DNA of 64,000 nt from Oscillospiraceae bacterium (GTDB taxonomy: Bacteria; Bacillota; Clostridia; Oscillospirales; Ruminococcaceae): the NCBI GenBank assembly GCA_021199795.1, contig JAJQHJ010000009.1, forward strand, positions 1 through 64,000, read 5' to 3'. The notes beneath the pieces were generated by a model. That model was not told the DNA's origin. It saw only the letters and a list, made by a program, of their open reading frames with translations, and did no database searches. Positions within the stretch are counted from its first letter, which is position 1. The number at the start of each line of letters is the position of its first letter. Positions 16,387 to 44,901 of the stretch are shown in pieces. The position numbers were made by a program, and so were the translations under genes.

Positions 16387-17160
16387 CTATGAGGCGGATG
16401 CTACATACTTCGTTACATCGTCAATGCCGGAAAGAATCTCATAATAATCCTCTTCCGATTCAACAGAGCTGTAGGCTTCAACCAGATTCTGAATATTGCG
16501 CTCGTACTCCCACTCGGCAATGGAACACACTATGTTATACTTGTACTCATTGTAGCATATCTTTGAAACAATTTCATCATGTATGTAGGTCTCACGCCAG
16601 ACCTCTTCAAATTCGTAGACATCACTTTGAGTTACGTAATAATATCCGTCGATAATCAGAAAGTCCACATCCTCGCCATATCCGTCCGGCAAAGATGTAC
16701 CGTCAGAACCTATTGCATACTCGGTACCGTCTGACAACACAAGAATATATTCATCTCCCCAATAATCGCCGTCAGGCACGACAGACCAGACAACGCTGGG
16801 AAGCTCGTCAATCTCCATTTCCTGGATTAATGCGACTATGCTTGCTGTTTGCTCCTCATCAAGAAGTGTCGGCTCGTCATAACCATAAAAGTCGTGTGTG
16901 ACATAGACAGAACAGCCATCAAAATCTGCACCGATAAGCGGATTGGCAGGGCTCTCAATGGTATAGGTTGCGAACGGTTCAGGGACTGTCTGATATATTG
17001 AGGATTCGTCCTCGGAAACAATTCCCTCGGATATGGCTTCCGCCGCAATATCAGAAACATCCCCGGCGATAACCTCATCCTCCACCAAGCTTTCACCCGC
17101 ACAGCCAGTTAAACTCAAAAATACAGCAAATATGGTGAGTATCAAAAGTGATCTTTTCAT
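16387..17160 (-). CDS. lipoprotein of unknown function
   Basis: A 257-residue precursor. Residues 1-20 form a lipoprotein signal with lipobox LTGC, then an acidic spacer (about 21-60) and a globular, Tyr/Asp/Glu-rich domain. I do not recognise the domain. The promoter is not of sigma-A type: a 30-base bipartite motif at 17205-17234 matches the one in front of the ECF sigma gene at 37942, so this lipoprotein is a likely member of that sigma regulon. AGGAGG lies 7 bases before ATG 17160. An envelope stress or sensing role is inference. Confidence 0.75.
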   Translation of the reverse strand: MKRSLLILTIFAVFLSLTGCAGESLVEDEVIAGDVSDIAAEAISEGIVSEDESSIYQTVPEPFATYTIESPANPLIGADFDGCSVYVTHDFYGYDEPTLLDEEQTASIVALIQEMEIDELPSVVWSVVPDGDYWGDEYILVLSDGTEYAIGSDGTSLPDGYGEDVDFLIIDGYYYVTQSDVYEFEEVWRETYIHDEIVSKICYNEYKYNIVCSIAEWEYERNIQNLVEAYSSVESEEDYYEILSGIDDVTKYVASAS

Positions 17161-17204: not shown

Positions 17205-17234
17205 TAATACACTTTAAGATGGCGGATTATTGCA
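17205..17234 (-). promoter_or_regulatory. putative ECF-sigma promoter of the lipoprotein gene
   Basis: Minus strand: TGCAATAATCCGCC, 9 variable bases, TGTATTA. All 21 non-spacer bases are identical to the motif at 37809-37838 upstream of the ECF sigma gene, whereas only 3 of 9 spacer bases agree. It ends 44 bases before the ATG. Confidence 0.75.
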
Positions 17235-37665: not shown

Positions 37666-37808
37666 TACTTATAAGGCGAAAAAAGTCTTAATTTCACCGT
37701 TTTTTCGCAAATATCGTGAACATAGTTCCTACTGAAAGAAAAAATCTTGCCTATTCGCAGAAAATGGGTTTACTTTTCAAAAATTTCTGATAAAATATTT
37801 TGTATGGA

Positions 37809-37838
37809 TGCAATAATCCGCCGCTCTGATGTGTATTA
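37809..37838 (+). promoter_or_regulatory. putative autoregulated ECF-sigma promoter
   Basis: TGCAATAATCCGCC, N9, TGTATTA. It is identical outside the 9-base spacer to the motif before the lipoprotein gene (17205-17234). It lies 104 bases before the sigma gene in the 37600-37941 intergenic region, which otherwise holds only the divergent sigma-A promoter. Confidence 0.75.
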
Positions 37839-37941
37839 GTATTGAAAACATGATTCGGGAGCGATCACATATATGAAAGGAGTTCTTTGCCGCAAAGAAT
37901 TTTTACACCGGTGAATTTCTCGCGGTAATTAAAAAAAGATC

Positions 37942-38442
37942 ATGGCTGAAAAGGATGTAAATGCCTACATAACCTCCGTGATCGATAAATATTCGGATAT
38001 GGTTTACAGGACGGCGTTCCACGCGCTGACCGACACCCACTATGCCGAAGATATCACGCAGGAGGTATTTCTGAAGCTATGCCGCTCACTCCCCGATTTT
38101 GATTCGGAGGAGCACGAAAAGGCATGGATTCTTAGGGTAACGATTAACATGTGCAAAAACTGCAACAGAAAAGCCTACACTCATCCGAGCGTCGAGCTGT
38201 CCGAGACGATTCCCGCGACAGACGAATACGCTCATGAGAGTTCGGTTCTTAGCGCGGTGAGAGAGCTTCCGGAGAAATACCGGACTCCTATCTACCTCTA
38301 CTACTTTGAGGGATGCCCCACGCGTGAGATCGCTGAGATTACTGGTACCAATCAGAACACGGTGCTTTCTATTCTCATGCGCGGAAAAAAAAAACTCGCA
38401 GAAATGCTGAAAGGAGAGTTTGGCGAAGATGAAATTATCTGA
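37942..38442 (+). CDS. ECF-type RNA polymerase sigma factor
   Basis: A 166-residue sigma-70 family factor with region 2 (HYAEDITQEVFLKLCRSL, HEKAWILRVTINMCKN) and region 4 (LPEKYRTPIYLYYFEGCPTR, IAEITGTNQNTVLSILMRGK). These are the only two conserved regions of ECF factors. It overlaps the following membrane-protein gene by 14 bases. The shared bipartite motif suggests that it drives its own promoter and that of the lipoprotein at 16387. Confidence 0.93.
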   Translation: MAEKDVNAYITSVIDKYSDMVYRTAFHALTDTHYAEDITQEVFLKLCRSLPDFDSEEHEKAWILRVTINMCKNCNRKAYTHPSVELSETIPATDEYAHESSVLSAVRELPEKYRTPIYLYYFEGCPTREIAEITGTNQNTVLSILMRGKKKLAEMLKGEFGEDEII

Positions 38443-40417
38443 CGATTATAAAAACGAATTGAGCCGCCTTACTCTCAGCGATGATTTCAAGGCGAAGCTT
38501 AAAGAACAGTGCATTGCCGAGGCTGGACTTGACAAGGCAAGCGAAACTACAGAAGAAAAAGCACCTGAAATTCAGGAGACTAAGTCCGGAAAAATCTATA
38601 AGCAGATGAAAGTCTACCGCTATGTTGCGATTGCCGCATGTATCGTTGCCGCAGTGTCGATTGTGGGCGGAGCGTCTATCATGTCGAGTGTATTCTCAAC
38701 TGTAACGAGGAGCACCGATTCAGCAAGCAATGAGGACATCATGGAAGAAGCGATGGACGAACTTTACGACACCGACACTGACTGGGAAGAGGATTCCGAA
38801 GACCTAGATGTCTACGATGAGCCGGTTGAAGATACCGCCACGGATGACGACGATCTCTCTGTTGAAGATGTAGACCTCGATACCCCGGAGGACACCGACA
38901 CCGAGTATGAAGTTGACGCGGCAGAATCGGACACGCTTACAGCTTCACCGACTTCAGGAAGCTCGTATACTCCCGACGACTACGACGGCGACTACAACAC
39001 TGAGGACTATGTCCTTGGCGGAAGCAACACGAGTGCTTCCAATACGGCAGACGTTTACGGCTCATTCTCTGCACTGGCGGCTGATGCCGGATATGTAACC
39101 TACAGCACCAGCGGCGGAGACGACGAAGAGCTGGTTGAAGACGCAGACGAACCGGTTGAAGATACTATGGTTGAAGATGATGACGAAATGATCGATGAAG
39201 CAGTTGAAAGTTCCTGGTATGATGAGCCGGTTGAAGATACGGCGGTCGATAATGATGAATCATACGAGTCATCGTCCGGTTCTTCCCTTCCCGATATTAC
39301 CACCGATTACGGAACGGCATCGAACTTCTATGATGTTCTCTATAACCAGATGGGAGACGAATCTGAGACTATAGGCGTTAGCCTTGTATGGATTACGATT
39401 ACGGGCACTCCCGATGCAAGCGGCGTTCCAGCACCATCCAGCGGCGGCTACACCTTATACAGTGCGAATATCAGCTACGACTACCTGAACGCTGTTTCCT
39501 GCGACATCGACATCTACGTCTGGATCAAGGGAACTGAGGACTACCAGGTCAAGGGTATGCCGACCTATGAAGCAGGCGACGACCTTATTGTCTCCCTCAT
39601 CCTCGGTGAAAACGGCTGCATAACGGTTGTCGACGAGCTCATCTACGATGCTTACACCCTTAATGGTGTAGACATCGCATACCACAGGGTTTATGAGAAC
39701 GTCAACCCGGGCAACACTGACATGGGCATTCTCGACAGCGAAAGAGAGTACTACACCACTACTTCAAACAATCCGGCTATATACGTTCACAAGGCGTCTG
39801 CAAGAGAGCTGACGAGATATATAAGACGTAAGGTAAACGGCGAAAACTACAATCTCGCCGACCTCGAAAAGGTTTCTCAGTACAGCATGGGACTTGCTTC
39901 CTACAGCGTATTTGCGACGACCTCGACTACAGACCATGCCGAGGAAGAGGAAACGGTAAGCCAGGCTAAGTCCACCCTCAGCATCAATGCCGGCTCCTCC
40001 ACAAGCTATTTCAGTCTGACTGCGGCTGGAGAATCTATCTCTATGAATGACAGTTCATCCGCAGAAAGGCTTGGCGAGCTCTACCAGAGCTCCATGACCG
40101 GAACTTCCTCTGGTAACGGAACTTCCACTGCGATGTTCGTTGGCGGTCACCTGACATTCTCGTCTGACACTCCTTTCTCAGGAGGTGTCACCGAGATTGA
40201 GATCACAAGCTCCGGATGCCCGCTTGACATCCAGTTCAGAGGAATTTCCGTCGGCGATTCACTCGCCACGGTTAAGGATAAACTCTCGACCTCCTCTACC
40301 GATGTTGCCTCACAGAGCCTGACTGACGACTGCGTCATCACAATAAAGAGCGACTTCGGAACAGTGAAGCTCACTATTGAGTATGGTGTGCTCACAAAGA
40401 TTGTGGTTAGTGGCTGA
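38429..40417 (+). CDS. large acidic membrane protein, probable anti-sigma partner
   Basis: A 662-residue protein. Residues about 1-65 are cytoplasmic with a DDYKNELSRLTLSDDFKAK segment, followed by one membrane helix (YVAIAACIVAAVSIVGGASI). A long extracytoplasmic part then has an Asp/Glu/Ser/Thr-rich region (about 90-290) holding three copies of DEPVEDT. The remainder is globular and Ser/Thr/Tyr-rich. The type II topology and overlap with the ECF sigma gene suggest an anti-sigma or sensor function, with the N-terminal tail binding sigma. I see no zinc-binding anti-sigma motif. ATG 38429 has GGAG about 12 bases upstream; TTG 38420 is too close to it. Confidence 0.7.
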   Translation: MKLSDDYKNELSRLTLSDDFKAKLKEQCIAEAGLDKASETTEEKAPEIQETKSGKIYKQMKVYRYVAIAACIVAAVSIVGGASIMSSVFSTVTRSTDSASNEDIMEEAMDELYDTDTDWEEDSEDLDVYDEPVEDTATDDDDLSVEDVDLDTPEDTDTEYEVDAAESDTLTASPTSGSSYTPDDYDGDYNTEDYVLGGSNTSASNTADVYGSFSALAADAGYVTYSTSGGDDEELVEDADEPVEDTMVEDDDEMIDEAVESSWYDEPVEDTAVDNDESYESSSGSSLPDITTDYGTASNFYDVLYNQMGDESETIGVSLVWITITGTPDASGVPAPSSGGYTLYSANISYDYLNAVSCDIDIYVWIKGTEDYQVKGMPTYEAGDDLIVSLILGENGCITVVDELIYDAYTLNGVDIAYHRVYENVNPGNTDMGILDSEREYYTTTSNNPAIYVHKASARELTRYIRRKVNGENYNLADLEKVSQYSMGLASYSVFATTSTTDHAEEEETVSQAKSTLSINAGSSTSYFSLTAAGESISMNDSSSAERLGELYQSSMTGTSSGNGTSTAMFVGGHLTFSSDTPFSGGVTEIEITSSGCPLDIQFRGISVGDSLATVKDKLSTSSTDVASQSLTDDCVITIKSDFGTVKLTIEYGVLTKIVVSG

Positions 40418-40529: not shown

Positions 40530-40584
40530 ATCAACATATTGTGCTCAGTATACATTTTTGACGCAAGATTTGCGGAGGGATATA

Positions 40585-42564
40585 ATGCCTAAAAAGGATT
40601 ACGGAAATGAAGCGATTCGCTCCCTGAAAGGGGCGGACAGGGTCAGGAAAAGACCTGCTGTTATCTTTGGCTCGGATGGGCTGGAGGGGTGCAAGCACTC
40701 TGTTTTTGAGATTATTTCAAACTCCATAGACGAAGCAAGAGAGGGCTACGGCTCGAAGATTATCGTCACCAGGTATAACGACTTCTCGATCGAGGTTGAG
40801 GACATGGGCAGAGGCTGTCCTGTCAACTTCAACAAGAGTGAGAACCGCTACAACTGGGAGCTTGTCTATTGCGAGCTCTATGCCGGAGGAAAATATGACA
40901 ACGTCTCCGGCGAAAACTATGAATATTCCCTGGGACTGAACGGCTTGGGAGCCTGCGCCACGCAGTATTCCTCCGAGTACATGGACGTCGAAGTCTTAAG
41001 AGACGGGTTCAGATATAATCTCCATTTTGAAAAGGGCGAGAATGTCGGAGGGCTTAAGAAAGAAAAGGTCTCGACAAGAAAAACCGGAACCAAAACAAGG
41101 TGGAAGCCTGACCTCGATGTCTTCACGGATGTCGCCATTGAAAAAGAGTACTTTGCCGATGTCTTAAAGAAGCAGTCGATAGTCAATCCAGGCATCACTT
41201 TTGTATTGAGATATCAGGACGAAGAGGGCGGATTCTCGGAGGAGAAATATCTCTACGAAAACGGAATTTTAGACTACGTTGCCGAGATTATCGGGGACGA
41301 AGCCTTAACCACTCCCCAGCTCTGGTCTGCTGAAAGAAAAGGCAAGGACAGAGAGGACATGAACGAGTACAAGGTCAAGTATAACTTTGCTTTCGTGTTC
41401 TCGAAAACCATAAAACAGGCTGAATACTTCCACAATTCGAGCTTTCTTGAATACGGCGGCTCCACCGAAAAGGCTGTCCGGCAAGCTTTCACCTCCTATA
41501 TCGACACTTATCTCAAGGCTAACAACAAATACCTCAAGAACGAAGCCAAGATTCAGTTTACCGACATTGAGGACTGCCTCGTCATGGTTTCGAGTTCGTT
41601 CTCGACTCAGACTTCCTATGAGAACCAGACAAAGAAAGCTATCAATAACAGATTCATATACGATGCGGCTGTTGCATTCTTAAAGCACCAGCTTGAGGTT
41701 TACTTCATTGAGAAGCCGGACGATGCGCAGAAGATATGCGACCAGGTTCTTATCAACAAGCGTTCGCGCGAGAGTGCAGAGAAGACGAGAATCAACACTA
41801 AAAAGCTCTACACCGAAAAGCTGGACATGGCTAACATGGTCAAGAAGTTTGTCGATTGCAGAACCAAGGATATTTCGAGGCGTGAGCTCTATATCGTTGA
41901 GGGTGATTCGGCTTTAGGCTCTGTAAAGCTTGCGAGAAATGCGGAGTTCCAGGCGGTCATCCCTATCAGAGGAAAGATCTTGAACTGCTTAAAAGCCAGC
42001 TACAACAAAATTTTCGAGAGCGAGATTATCACCGACCTCATGAAAGTCCTGGGCTGCGGAGTTGAGATAAAGAGTGCCAAGAACAAGGAGCTGTCGTCAT
42101 TTAACTTAAGCAATCTCAGATGGAATAAAGTTATCATCTGCACCGATGCCGATTATGACGGATTCCAGATCAGAACCCTTGTCCTCACAATGATTTACAC
42201 CCTCTGCCCTACCCTTATCGAGAAAGGCTATGTTTTCATCGCGGAATCTCCTCTGTATGAAATCAATACGAAAGACAGAACCTATTTTGCTTACGACGAG
42301 AGTGAGCGTGCCGAGATAATGAACATGATAGGCGACCAGAAATTCACTATCCAGCGTTCAAAAGGACTTGGTGAAAACGAACCGGATATGATGTCATTAA
42401 CCACCATGAATCCGGAAACAAGGCGGCTCATTCAGGTTTCGCCCGGTGAAGCGGAGCATACAAAGTTCATGTTTGACATGCTTTTAGGCGACAATTTAGC
42501 CGCAAGAAAAGAATTTATCAATAACAATGGTCATGATTATCTCGAAATGGCTGATATCAGCTAA
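40585..42564 (+). CDS. parE: type IIA topoisomerase B subunit (topoisomerase IV-like)
   Basis: A 659-residue ATPase subunit. The GHKL site shows ISNSIDEAREG and EVEDMGRGCPV, with GLNGLGACATQYSS; the Toprim domain has VEGDSALGSVK and TDADYDGFQI. Length and operon pairing with an A subunit, away from any dnaA-gyrB context, suggest the topoisomerase IV type used in chromosome decatenation, although gyrase-like activity cannot be ruled out. ATG 40585 follows CGGAGGG by 6 bases. Confidence 0.85.
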   Translation: MPKKDYGNEAIRSLKGADRVRKRPAVIFGSDGLEGCKHSVFEIISNSIDEAREGYGSKIIVTRYNDFSIEVEDMGRGCPVNFNKSENRYNWELVYCELYAGGKYDNVSGENYEYSLGLNGLGACATQYSSEYMDVEVLRDGFRYNLHFEKGENVGGLKKEKVSTRKTGTKTRWKPDLDVFTDVAIEKEYFADVLKKQSIVNPGITFVLRYQDEEGGFSEEKYLYENGILDYVAEIIGDEALTTPQLWSAERKGKDREDMNEYKVKYNFAFVFSKTIKQAEYFHNSSFLEYGGSTEKAVRQAFTSYIDTYLKANNKYLKNEAKIQFTDIEDCLVMVSSSFSTQTSYENQTKKAINNRFIYDAAVAFLKHQLEVYFIEKPDDAQKICDQVLINKRSRESAEKTRINTKKLYTEKLDMANMVKKFVDCRTKDISRRELYIVEGDSALGSVKLARNAEFQAVIPIRGKILNCLKASYNKIFESEIITDLMKVLGCGVEIKSAKNKELSSFNLSNLRWNKVIICTDADYDGFQIRTLVLTMIYTLCPTLIEKGYVFIAESPLYEINTKDRTYFAYDESERAEIMNMIGDQKFTIQRSKGLGENEPDMMSLTTMNPETRRLIQVSPGEAEHTKFMFDMLLGDNLAARKEFINNNGHDYLEMADIS

Positions 42565-42567
42565 AAA

Positions 42568-42614
42568 CAGTTGTCCTACGGACAACTGCTGAAGTTCGGC
42601 AAAGCCGAACTTCA
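42568..42614. repeat. tandem perfect hairpins between the topoisomerase genes
   Basis: CAGTTGTCC-TAC-GGACAACTG (42568-42588) is followed by TGAAGTTCGGC-AAA-GCCGAACTTCA (42590-42614). Both are perfect with 3-base loops. The same two-hairpin layout, with the second starting TGAAG, occurs at 54805-54851. Confidence 0.7.
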
Positions 42615-42654
42615 CACACCCCATACAACTTAAACTTAGAAGGATGTGATATAC

Positions 42655-44901
42655 TTGCCTAGGAAGAAAAAGCCGGTCGAGGACAAGCCGGTCAAGCTTA
42701 CAGAAAGACAGCGAGACGCCTATATCGGAGGAGCCGGAACGGTTGTGGACGAACCTATAACCGTCACGCTTGAAAAGAACTACATGCCATATGCGATGAG
42801 CGTCATCGTTTCAAGAGCTTTCCCGGAAATTGACGGCTTCAAGCCCTCCCACCGGAAGCTTCTTTACACCATGTACAAGATGGGGCTTCTGACTGGTCCC
42901 CGAACCAAGTCTGCAAACATTGTCGGACAGACTATGAAGCTTAATCCACACGGCGACCAGGCTATTTATGAGACTATGGTCAGATTAGCGCGTGGCAACG
43001 AGGCACTTCTGCACCCGTATGTAGACTCAAAGGGCAACTTCGGCAAGGCGTATTCGAGCGACATGGCTTTTGCTGCACCGAGATATACCGAGGCGAAACT
43101 TGAGCCCATATGCAACGAGCTTTTCAGGGACATAGACAGGGACACCGTCAATTTCGTACCGAACTATGACAACACCATGATGGAGCCGGAACTTCTGCCG
43201 GTTACTTTCCCAAGTATACTCGTCAATTCAAACGTCGGTATCGGCGTTTCGATGGCGAGCTCTGTCTGCCCTTTCAATTTAAGAGAGCTCTGCGAGGCTA
43301 CCATAAATATTATCAGAGATCCCGACTATGACGCCCTCGAAGTGATGAAAGGTCCCGACTTCCCCGGCGGCGGATATATGATAAATGAGCCTGAAAAGCT
43401 CAGGCAGATTTTCGACACAGGCAGAGGCTCTGTAAAAGTCAGGGCTAAGTATAACTTCGACAAAGAAGCCGGCTGCATCGAGATTACGGAAATTCCTCCT
43501 ACGACTACTGTTGAAGCCATAATTGAAAAAGTAATAGATCTCGCCAAGAACGGCATGAAAGAAATAGCCTATATCCGAGACGAAACCGACCTGGACGGCT
43601 TGAAGATTGCCATTGATGTGAAGCGAGGAACCGACCCGGATCTTCTCATGAAGAAGCTATATGCGAAGACTCCCTTGCAGGACAACTACTCTGCTAACTT
43701 CAATATCCTGGTCAACGGCTACCCGAAAGTTTTGGGTGTCAATGACATTATAAGAGAATGGATCAAGTTCAGAGTAGAGTGCATCAAAAGAAGAACTGCT
43801 TTTGATCTTAAGAAAAAGAACGAGAGATTGCACCTACTCGAGGGGCTTGAAAAGATACTTCTTGACATCGACAAGGCTATCAAAATTGTAAGGGAGACCG
43901 AGGAGGAATCGGACGTTGTCCCGAACCTGATGATTGGGTTCTCTATCGATGAGATCCAGGCGGAATATGTCGCAGAGATTAAGCTCAGGCACTTAAATCG
44001 GGAGTTTATCTTAAACAGGTTAGCCGATGTTGAACAGCTTAAGGCTGAAATTGACGAGCTCAACAGCATATTGGGCTCTGAGAGAAAAGTGAAGCTCATA
44101 ATCATTGACGAGCTCAAGAAAGTAGCCGAAAAGTATGGTCAGCCGAGAAGAACTGAGATTATCTATGTTTCCGACGAACCTCTTCCCAAGGAGGAGAAGA
44201 CCGTATCCGATTATCCTTGCAGAGTGTTCTTGACACGTGAGGGCTACTTCAAGAAGATTACTCCGCAGTCCTTAAGAATGTCTGGCGAGCAGAAAGTGAA
44301 AGAGAACGACGTCATGATGCAGGAGTTCGACACGACGAATTCGGCTGAGCTTCTGTTCTTCACGAATACGCACAACGTCTACAAGGCTAAGGTGGCACAG
44401 TTTGGAGACTCTAAGGCAAGCTTACTTGGAGACTTTATTCCTGTTACGCTTAAGTTCTCTGAGGGCGAAACGGTTGTAAGGATGGCTGTGACCCAGAACT
44501 ATAGCGGTTGCCTGCTGTTTGTTTACAAGAACGGCAAGGTTGCGAAAGTACCGCTTGAATCGTATCAGACGAAGACGAACAGAAAGATGCTCCAGAATGC
44601 CTATTCGGATAAAGAAGAGCTTGTCGAGATTCTCGATATCGGCGAGGGTGCGGATGTCATGCTTCGCTCAACCAACGGAAGAGCAATTCTCTTCAACACC
44701 GGAATGATTCTCCCGAAGACTACGAAGAACACCATCGGCGTCCAGGCTATGGCTCTCAAGGCTAAAGGAAGCTCAGTCGATTCGGCTGTTATCGTCACGG
44801 AAGATAAAGCCAAGGAGCTCTCCAAATACCGCACAAAGACGCTTCCCACCGCAGGACCATTCGCAAAAGACTTGGAAGATCCGAACCAATATACGCTATA
44901 A
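42655..44901 (+). CDS. parC: type IIA topoisomerase A subunit (topoisomerase IV-like)
   Basis: A 748-residue DNA-cleaving subunit. It has YMPYAMSVIVSRAFPEIDGF, PSHRKLLYTMYKMGL and AAPRYTEAKLEP with the active-site tyrosine, IGVSMASSVCPFNL, and a short C-terminal region without an obvious GyrA-box. Start TTG 42655 is preferred because AAGGA lies about 10 bases upstream; GTG 42646 is too close. It acts with the B subunit encoded just before. Confidence 0.87.
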   Translation: MPRKKKPVEDKPVKLTERQRDAYIGGAGTVVDEPITVTLEKNYMPYAMSVIVSRAFPEIDGFKPSHRKLLYTMYKMGLLTGPRTKSANIVGQTMKLNPHGDQAIYETMVRLARGNEALLHPYVDSKGNFGKAYSSDMAFAAPRYTEAKLEPICNELFRDIDRDTVNFVPNYDNTMMEPELLPVTFPSILVNSNVGIGVSMASSVCPFNLRELCEATINIIRDPDYDALEVMKGPDFPGGGYMINEPEKLRQIFDTGRGSVKVRAKYNFDKEAGCIEITEIPPTTTVEAIIEKVIDLAKNGMKEIAYIRDETDLDGLKIAIDVKRGTDPDLLMKKLYAKTPLQDNYSANFNILVNGYPKVLGVNDIIREWIKFRVECIKRRTAFDLKKKNERLHLLEGLEKILLDIDKAIKIVRETEEESDVVPNLMIGFSIDEIQAEYVAEIKLRHLNREFILNRLADVEQLKAEIDELNSILGSERKVKLIIIDELKKVAEKYGQPRRTEIIYVSDEPLPKEEKTVSDYPCRVFLTREGYFKKITPQSLRMSGEQKVKENDVMMQEFDTTNSAELLFFTNTHNVYKAKVAQFGDSKASLLGDFIPVTLKFSEGETVVRMAVTQNYSGCLLFVYKNGKVAKVPLESYQTKTNRKMLQNAYSDKEELVEILDIGEGADVMLRSTNGRAILFNTGMILPKTTKNTIGVQAMALKAKGSSVDSAVIVTEDKAKELSKYRTKTLPTAGPFAKDLEDPNQYTL

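Follow-up and report, generated by a model that had tools for sequence, protein, structure and literature searches.

The ECF sigma factor encoded in the 64,000-nt stretch of Oscillospiraceae DNA analysed here (the window) probably reads a promoter code from which it transcribes its own operon, a regulon and a trans-encoded small RNA that pairs with the sigma mRNA and represses it; we hold this reading with good confidence. We also think it rather likely, if with a little more reserve, that the sigma factor directs a trans antisense RNA against its own leader, with 25–43 predicted pairs running from the 5' end through the Shine-Dalgarno sequence and with repeated compensatory changes genus-wide, and that autoactivation and shut-off would share one code, which differs by one base, regulon-wide, between lineages. 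The motif, the regulon, the small RNA gene and the base pairing with its compensatory changes can be followed in the genome sequences themselves.

The sigma operon, its promoter code and the regulon

The gene proposed in the first-pass annotation as an ECF sigma factor is one by Pfam (Sigma70_r2 and Sigma70_r4_2) and by TIGR02937, and the best PDB sequence match of its 166-aa product is Bacillus subtilis SigW. In the Pfam matches r2 spans residues 14–74 and r4_2 residues 102–152, with a linker of about 28 aa; this is the group IV (ECF) architecture of sigma2 and sigma4 domains only, joined by a short linker, as given in the available text of PMC8103513. The features of the window on which the analysis of the promoter code draws are the following.

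37769–37796, + strand: possible housekeeping-type promoter, TTTACT-16-TAAAAT with TG before the -10, upstream of the ECF promoter (scan, 9/12 matches)
37809–37838, + strand: ECF-type promoter of the sigma operon, TGCAATAAT-N14-TGTATTA (motif search, relatives)
37942–38442, + strand: ECF sigma factor, 166 aa (Pfam, NCBIfam, PDB sequence match)
38420–40417, + strand: 665-aa protein with a single TM stretch near residue 69, putative membrane anti-sigma factor (position, topology)
17205–17234, - strand: ECF-type promoter of the lipoprotein gene (motif search)
16387–17160, - strand: lipoprotein of unknown function, 257 aa, lipobox LTGC (ORF, lipobox)

The reading frame of the 665-aa protein, which is rich in acidic residues, overlaps the sigma stop by 23 nt, and the order of sigma gene and overlapping single-TM protein was found in all 24 genomes read (own included) out of 30. 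Pfam and NCBIfam gave no match to this protein, and so no known anti-sigma domain by either; we take it as a putative anti-sigma factor by its position and topology. In 13 aligned sequences its cytosolic start is invariant (Y10, K11, L19, K24, L27, K28), as are parts of its outer domain. Also in the window, at 40558–44901, lies a GyrB/ParE-like and GyrA/ParC-like pair that may represent an extra or divergent type II topoisomerase, on the basis of NCBIfam matches that, as shown, are all below the curated cut-offs.

Both window copies of the motif were recovered at the positions and on the strands first reported, with 0 mismatches and with 0 occurrences in 100 dinucleotide shuffles. From the end of the motif it is 103 nt to the sigma ATG at 37942 on the + strand and 44 nt to the lipoprotein ATG on the - strand. 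The 21-base code that the first-pass annotation had read from these two copies is indeed identical at both, and in the own 2.16-Mb genome (G000; L-numbers denote individual motif sites) this full pattern has 5 exact sites and 12 at up to 3 mismatches, with 0 in controls. Its CCGCC, however, falls outside the general code (5 of the 19 genome sites match the full pattern exactly), and the long form was ruled out as such: the general parts are TGCAATAAT and TGTATTA alone. Nor is the spacer wholly free: the bases directly 5' of TGTATTA lean to GAT/AAT/AAG (by eye, from the site listing). Three of the five full-pattern sites (L001, L002, L004) share the spacer too, as expected for a duplicated promoter-leader cassette; their shared leader and spacer look as if such a cassette had been duplicated. 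A common leader with a GCAATTTTTATTGC-type hairpin is found at L001, L002, L004 and L007, several secreted-protein genes. A stretch resembling the possible housekeeping-type promoter is visible upstream of the sigma gene in relatives, but the scan of the region gave 2 promoter-like sites against 1.3 expected.

The general code, TGCAATAAT-N14-TGTATTA, has 13 exact and 6 one-mismatch sites in the own genome, 19 in all, and its reversed-pattern control has 0. At up to 3 mismatches there are 51 genome sites against 15 control matches, and sites at 2–3 mismatches were left out of the regulon, the control matches being too numerous. When the genome scan that had been suggested was run, 18 of the 19 sites at no more than one mismatch were found to precede a start codon by 4–223 nt. 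A signal peptide is called for 14 of the 18 targets, compared with 65 of 348 background genes (Fisher p 2.6e-7), where the background is the 348 genes in 400 kb of the own genome and the signal peptide is called by a simple rule that counts membrane proteins too (31 of the 348 are positive without further TM). The target of L010 was scored negative, yet looks like a lipoprotein with a later start. At 12 of the 18 targets the distance from the end of the motif to the ATG is 20–45 nt, into which a further promoter would hardly fit.

The targets include the sigma gene, an ABC ATPase and an aminotransferase class V protein, which we take to resemble cysteine desulfurase (NifS-like), as well as a serpin, a DUF4349 protein and proteins with fibronectin type III domains (above the Pfam cut-off in three cases, below it in two); the others are unknown secreted proteins and lipoproteins. 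The serpin is itself a secreted protein (L019, G000:C41:71281, E 2.6e-68), and the 257-aa lipoprotein of the window is a paralogue of another regulon member, L017. The candidate regulon of sigma factor, membrane partner and lipoprotein proposed earlier is retained, within a set larger than proposed: 19 sites, mostly at secreted proteins and lipoproteins. At the NifS-like gene the motif lies 4 nt before the ATG (L013, G000:C9:119803-119832, - strand), and at the relatives' sites L144, L151 and L153 this distance is 3–18 nt, so that the transcript may be leaderless or nearly so.

The code was then followed through a genus set of 31 genomes, 17 in clade A (11 A1 and 6 A2) and 14 in clade B. With a degenerate pattern, a form of the motif was found upstream of the sigma gene in 31/31. 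A search of 99 genomes, the own one among them, gave 15–19 sites at no more than one mismatch in each of the 11 whose sigma is closest (at least 87% identity). Exact TGCAATANT-N14-TGTATTA occurs in 17/17 clade A genomes (1–13 sites each) and at one site among the 14 clade B genomes (G016); exact TGCAATANT-N14-CGTATTA occurs in 0/17 clade A and 12/14 clade B genomes (1–8 sites each). A looser C-type pattern, at no more than one mismatch, gives 7–14 sites per B genome (controls 0–2), 0–2 in A1 and 2–7 in A2, the A2 matches listed being mostly T-type sites counted as one mismatch. By these counts TGTATTA and CGTATTA are each all but confined to one of the two sister clades. Both clades have among their targets the sigma gene, the NifS-like gene, the ABC ATPase and lipoproteins. 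In G022 the sigma gene appears to be in two pieces (G022:C55:17852-18318), although promoter, leader and small RNA are kept.

On the sigma tree (30 sequences) the T/C clade difference is one change with 100/100 support. Motif and sigma follow one species tree, so the clade difference counts as one event and is no proof of recognition alone; the link between motif and sigma factor is drawn because a form of the motif stands upstream of the sigma gene throughout the genus set and has promoter geometry. A search for the sigma residues behind the C/T difference gave 15 clade-separating positions (24 of 30 sequences), none of them in the stretch that we presume to be regions 2.3–2.4. Outside the genus, 68 other-genus genomes gave 5 motif matches against 7 control matches, which is no excess. 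Two of these five, the single matches at G048:C18:4397-4426 and G055:C47:80541-80570, lie directly upstream of a homologue of this sigma factor, with short leaders.

The motif might instead be read by another regulator, either a different sigma factor or a transcription factor acting on the direct repeat TGCAATAAT / TGTATTACT. This would be in keeping with the 18 sigma-70 region-2 matches in the own genome, with the likeness of the half-sites in clade A and with motif and sigma differences that follow one species tree. We nevertheless judge it quite improbable: in clade B the half-sites, TGCAATATT and CGTATTA, are no longer alike, motif spacing and position fit an ECF -35/-10 promoter, and a motif form precedes this very sigma gene in every genome of the genus set. 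The matches upstream of the sigma homologues of G048 and G055 point the same way, though against the background of control matches given above. We infer that the sigma factor at 37942–38442 reads TGCAATAAT-N14-TGTATTA.

The small RNA gene and its pairing with the sigma leader

Downstream of the nineteenth site of the own genome (G000:C15:316508-316537, one mismatch) come a 5' hairpin, an unpaired stretch and a strong terminator, and an RNA of ~95 nt with a terminator is predicted there, on another contig than the sigma gene. This RNA folds better than 200/200 shuffles (z -4.0, own genome). It has its own motif site and intrinsic terminator at a locus distinct from that of its target, and is in this sense trans-encoded. 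In sequence, the unpaired stretch is the reverse complement of the nucleotides with which the sigma mRNA of the same genome is predicted to begin.

G000:C15:316538-316639, outside the window: small RNA region, carrying the seed CATGTTTTCA
37843–37852, + strand: TGAAAACATG, predicted 5' start of the sigma mRNA, complementary to the seed
37875–37882, + strand: GAAAGGAG, Shine-Dalgarno of the sigma mRNA, within the predicted duplex; a predicted hairpin lies in the 59 nt up to the ATG

Copies were first noticed among eight relatives' sites without a near ORF, seven of which run, by eye, into the reverse complement of the sigma start (L149 does not). Later copies came from similar A1 sites, from motif sites with a terminator, from covariance models and from a promoter-plus-seed pattern. 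Only the RNAs went into building R1 and R2, yet both models contain the seed letters, and CGTTTCA is required by the pattern, so that all three lean towards the seed; the list of motif sites with a terminator was made without use of the seed. The terminator filter passed over the G016 copy (L236) and also picked out several coding stretches. Altogether 29 of the 31 genus genomes have a copy (11 A1, 6 A2 and 12 B), and in G018 and G019 no small RNA was found among motif sites at no more than one mismatch, by R2 or by the pattern. L181 of G027 was ruled out as a small RNA, being a lipoprotein gene.

R1 has matches in 11 of 31 genomes, all of clade A1, at one locus each, and an extra weak match in G020 lies on the opposite strand of the same small-RNA locus. 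The promoter-plus-seed pattern matched once in each of 12 clade B genomes (of 14) and nowhere in clade A or in controls. R2 recovered the same 12 B genomes plus G012 and G013, and had further weak matches, among them some (E 0.01–0.08) on the antisense strand of the sigma leader in G005, G003, G017 and G010. RNAalifold returned no consensus structure for the clade-B RNA, so R2 is a model of sequence only; it does not detect the A1 form even in the own genome. When R2, which misses the A1 form, was run under stricter filters on 100 family genomes, none of the 98 from other genera gave the small RNA. Rfam (release 15) had 0 matches at E≤1 in 8 small-RNA loci.

Representative pairs of sigma start and RNA seed are the following.

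Own genome: sigma TGAAAACATG, RNA CATGTTTTCA
G006, G014, G025, G030: sigma TGAAAGTATGAT, RNA ATCATACTTTCA
G012, G013: sigma TGAAACTTGAAT, RNA ATTCAGGTTTCA, one G-U
G016: sigma TGAAACGTG, RNA CACGTTTCA
G004: sigma TGAAACGAGT, RNA ACTCGTTTCA

The seed register was set by TTTC, a string with a single occurrence per RNA in the range tested, and the genomes then give 22 distinct sigma/RNA rows. Columns 1–8 are paired in all of them, and columns 6, 7 and 8 hold 3, 5 and 3 pair types. Over columns 1–11, 93.4% of positions are paired against 71.4% (sd 3.5) with permuted partners, and 0/10000 permutations reach the observed value. Duplexes between own partners have -25.2 kcal/mol, compared with -17.0 for permuted partners and -21.4 for partners permuted within clades (0/10000 each). 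Within A1, the AACA and the AGTA version each form the stronger duplex with partners of the same version (-20.8 and -25.1 vs -16.6 and -16.5). By our reading of the sigma tree, the compensatory changes fall on at least five branches. Conserved complementarity with compensatory changes, as found here, is characteristic of a trans-encoded base-pairing small RNA.

Could the complementarity be chance, or a by-product of shared start-site sequence, with an RNA that has other target mRNAs or none? The sigma start does have a constant TGAAA. In the own genome alone, 9 of 4000 random 60-nt segments equal the small RNA in their pairing with the leader, so the case for pairing rests on covariation. There, the variable positions change together on both sides, on the several branches just mentioned, and permuted partners never reach the observed pairing, which makes chance or a by-product a very improbable explanation. 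Base pairing between the small RNA and the sigma mRNA is strongly supported.

RNAcofold predicts 25–43 intermolecular pairs in 27 of 29 genomes, the exceptions being G008 with 11 pairs and G022 with 18. Ranked by their pairing with the small RNA, the 19 regulon leaders of the own genome are headed by that of sigma (-37.8, next -27.8). A second pairing region is weaker and uneven, with z from -6.0 to +0.7 against shuffles and a within-clade permutation p of 0.0024; z is above -1.5 in 7 of the 29 genomes (G004, G005, G008, G010, G015, G021, G022).

The predicted Shine-Dalgarno contact and the probable direction of control

An AAAGGAG Shine-Dalgarno is present in 30/30 sigma leaders examined. It stands 11–17 nt from the start codon in 7 leaders and 32–63 nt away, with a variable predicted hairpin, in 23; being constant, with a spacing that is either short or bridged by a hairpin, it is very likely real. 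Where present, the hairpin (within 37883–37941 in the window, compared with 29 relatives) looks as if it splints the distance from Shine-Dalgarno to ATG. At least three of the four GGAG bases lie in the predicted duplex in 23 of 28 genomes, against 47% with shuffled RNAs, and fewer than three Shine-Dalgarno bases are paired in 5 of 28; G008 was not scorable. An own-leader structure that hides the start codon was set aside, as the CAUGAU/AUCAUG match in the G000 fold was not seen by eye in clade B.

The small RNA might activate the sigma mRNA rather than repress it, by covering the extreme 5' end and blocking 5'-3' decay by RNase J in the manner of RoxS-yflS. The most constant helix starts about 3–5 nt after the -10 element, near the expected transcription start, which speaks for such protection. 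The predicted duplex nevertheless continues into the Shine-Dalgarno in most genomes, by the count just given, which should block ribosomes, and a second positive loop atop positive autoregulation would presumably be unstable; we consider activation unlikely. Repression is the direction suggested by the Shine-Dalgarno contact.

In the repressive loop that we prefer, a signal would free the sigma factor from the membrane protein, and the sigma factor would drive its own operon, 17 other sites before protein genes, for the most part encoding lipoproteins and small secreted proteins, and the one trans-encoded small RNA. With its 5' hairpin, unpaired seed and terminator, this RNA would pair from the 5' end of the sigma mRNA, usually through the Shine-Dalgarno. 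The likely outcome would be blocked ribosome binding and mRNA decay, and hence less sigma factor; the anti-sigma factor may be lowered too, through the overlapping reading frame. Such direct negative feedback would oppose positive autoregulation. We infer from the genome comparison that the RNA is produced, that the sigma factor reads the motif and that the pairing represses.

Relation to known sigma-dependent small RNAs

If this is true, a direct RNA brake on the mRNA of the same sigma factor would be a second brake built into the regulon, beside the anti-sigma factor. The pair offers 22 distinct natural mRNA/RNA variants for the study of RNA-RNA pairing, and the two promoter codes of the sister clades are material for how a whole regulon changes its -10 element. 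A secreted-protein regulon is also defined in uncultured gut Oscillospiraceae.

The comparisons that follow draw on the available parts of the cited reports. The usual state of an ECF sigma factor is autoregulation with an anti-sigma factor (PMC8103513). In the available open-licence literature we found no same-sigma loop, in which the RNA made by a sigma factor pairs with the mRNA of that factor. The Escherichia coli RpoE (sigma E) system is alike in that an ECF sigma factor transcribes itself and small RNAs, MicA, RybB and MicL, but the main targets of these are envelope protein mRNAs (PMC8103513), whereas the supported target here is the sigma mRNA. FoxJ of Fusobacterium nucleatum is sigma E-dependent too, and its overexpression lowers 28 genes, rpoE among them; the available text describes no direct pairing of FoxJ with the rpoE mRNA (PMC11005410). 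The SigAb/SabS system of Acinetobacter has a similarly small ECF regulon, comprising the sigma factor itself, relA and a small RNA, and in the available text pairing of SabS with sigAb mRNA is not described (PMC12153292). RoxS-yflS of B. subtilis is likewise a Firmicute case in which the very 5' end of an mRNA is paired, but it is activating, through a block of RNase J1 and more 30S binding, and its target is a malate transporter rather than a sigma factor (PMC5419742).

Pairing of small RNAs with sigma factor mRNAs is known: UdsC binds rpoHII mRNA (PMC9779115), and StsR of Rhodobacter sphaeroides, a sigma-dependent small RNA, pairs with rpoE mRNA in a negative loop (PMC8307010). The StsR seed starts 10 nt inside the coding region, whereas the pairing described here would begin at the predicted 5' end of the mRNA. 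StsR is moreover under RpoHI/RpoHII and has another sigma factor as its target (PMC8307010), whereas here one sigma factor would stand at both ends of the loop.
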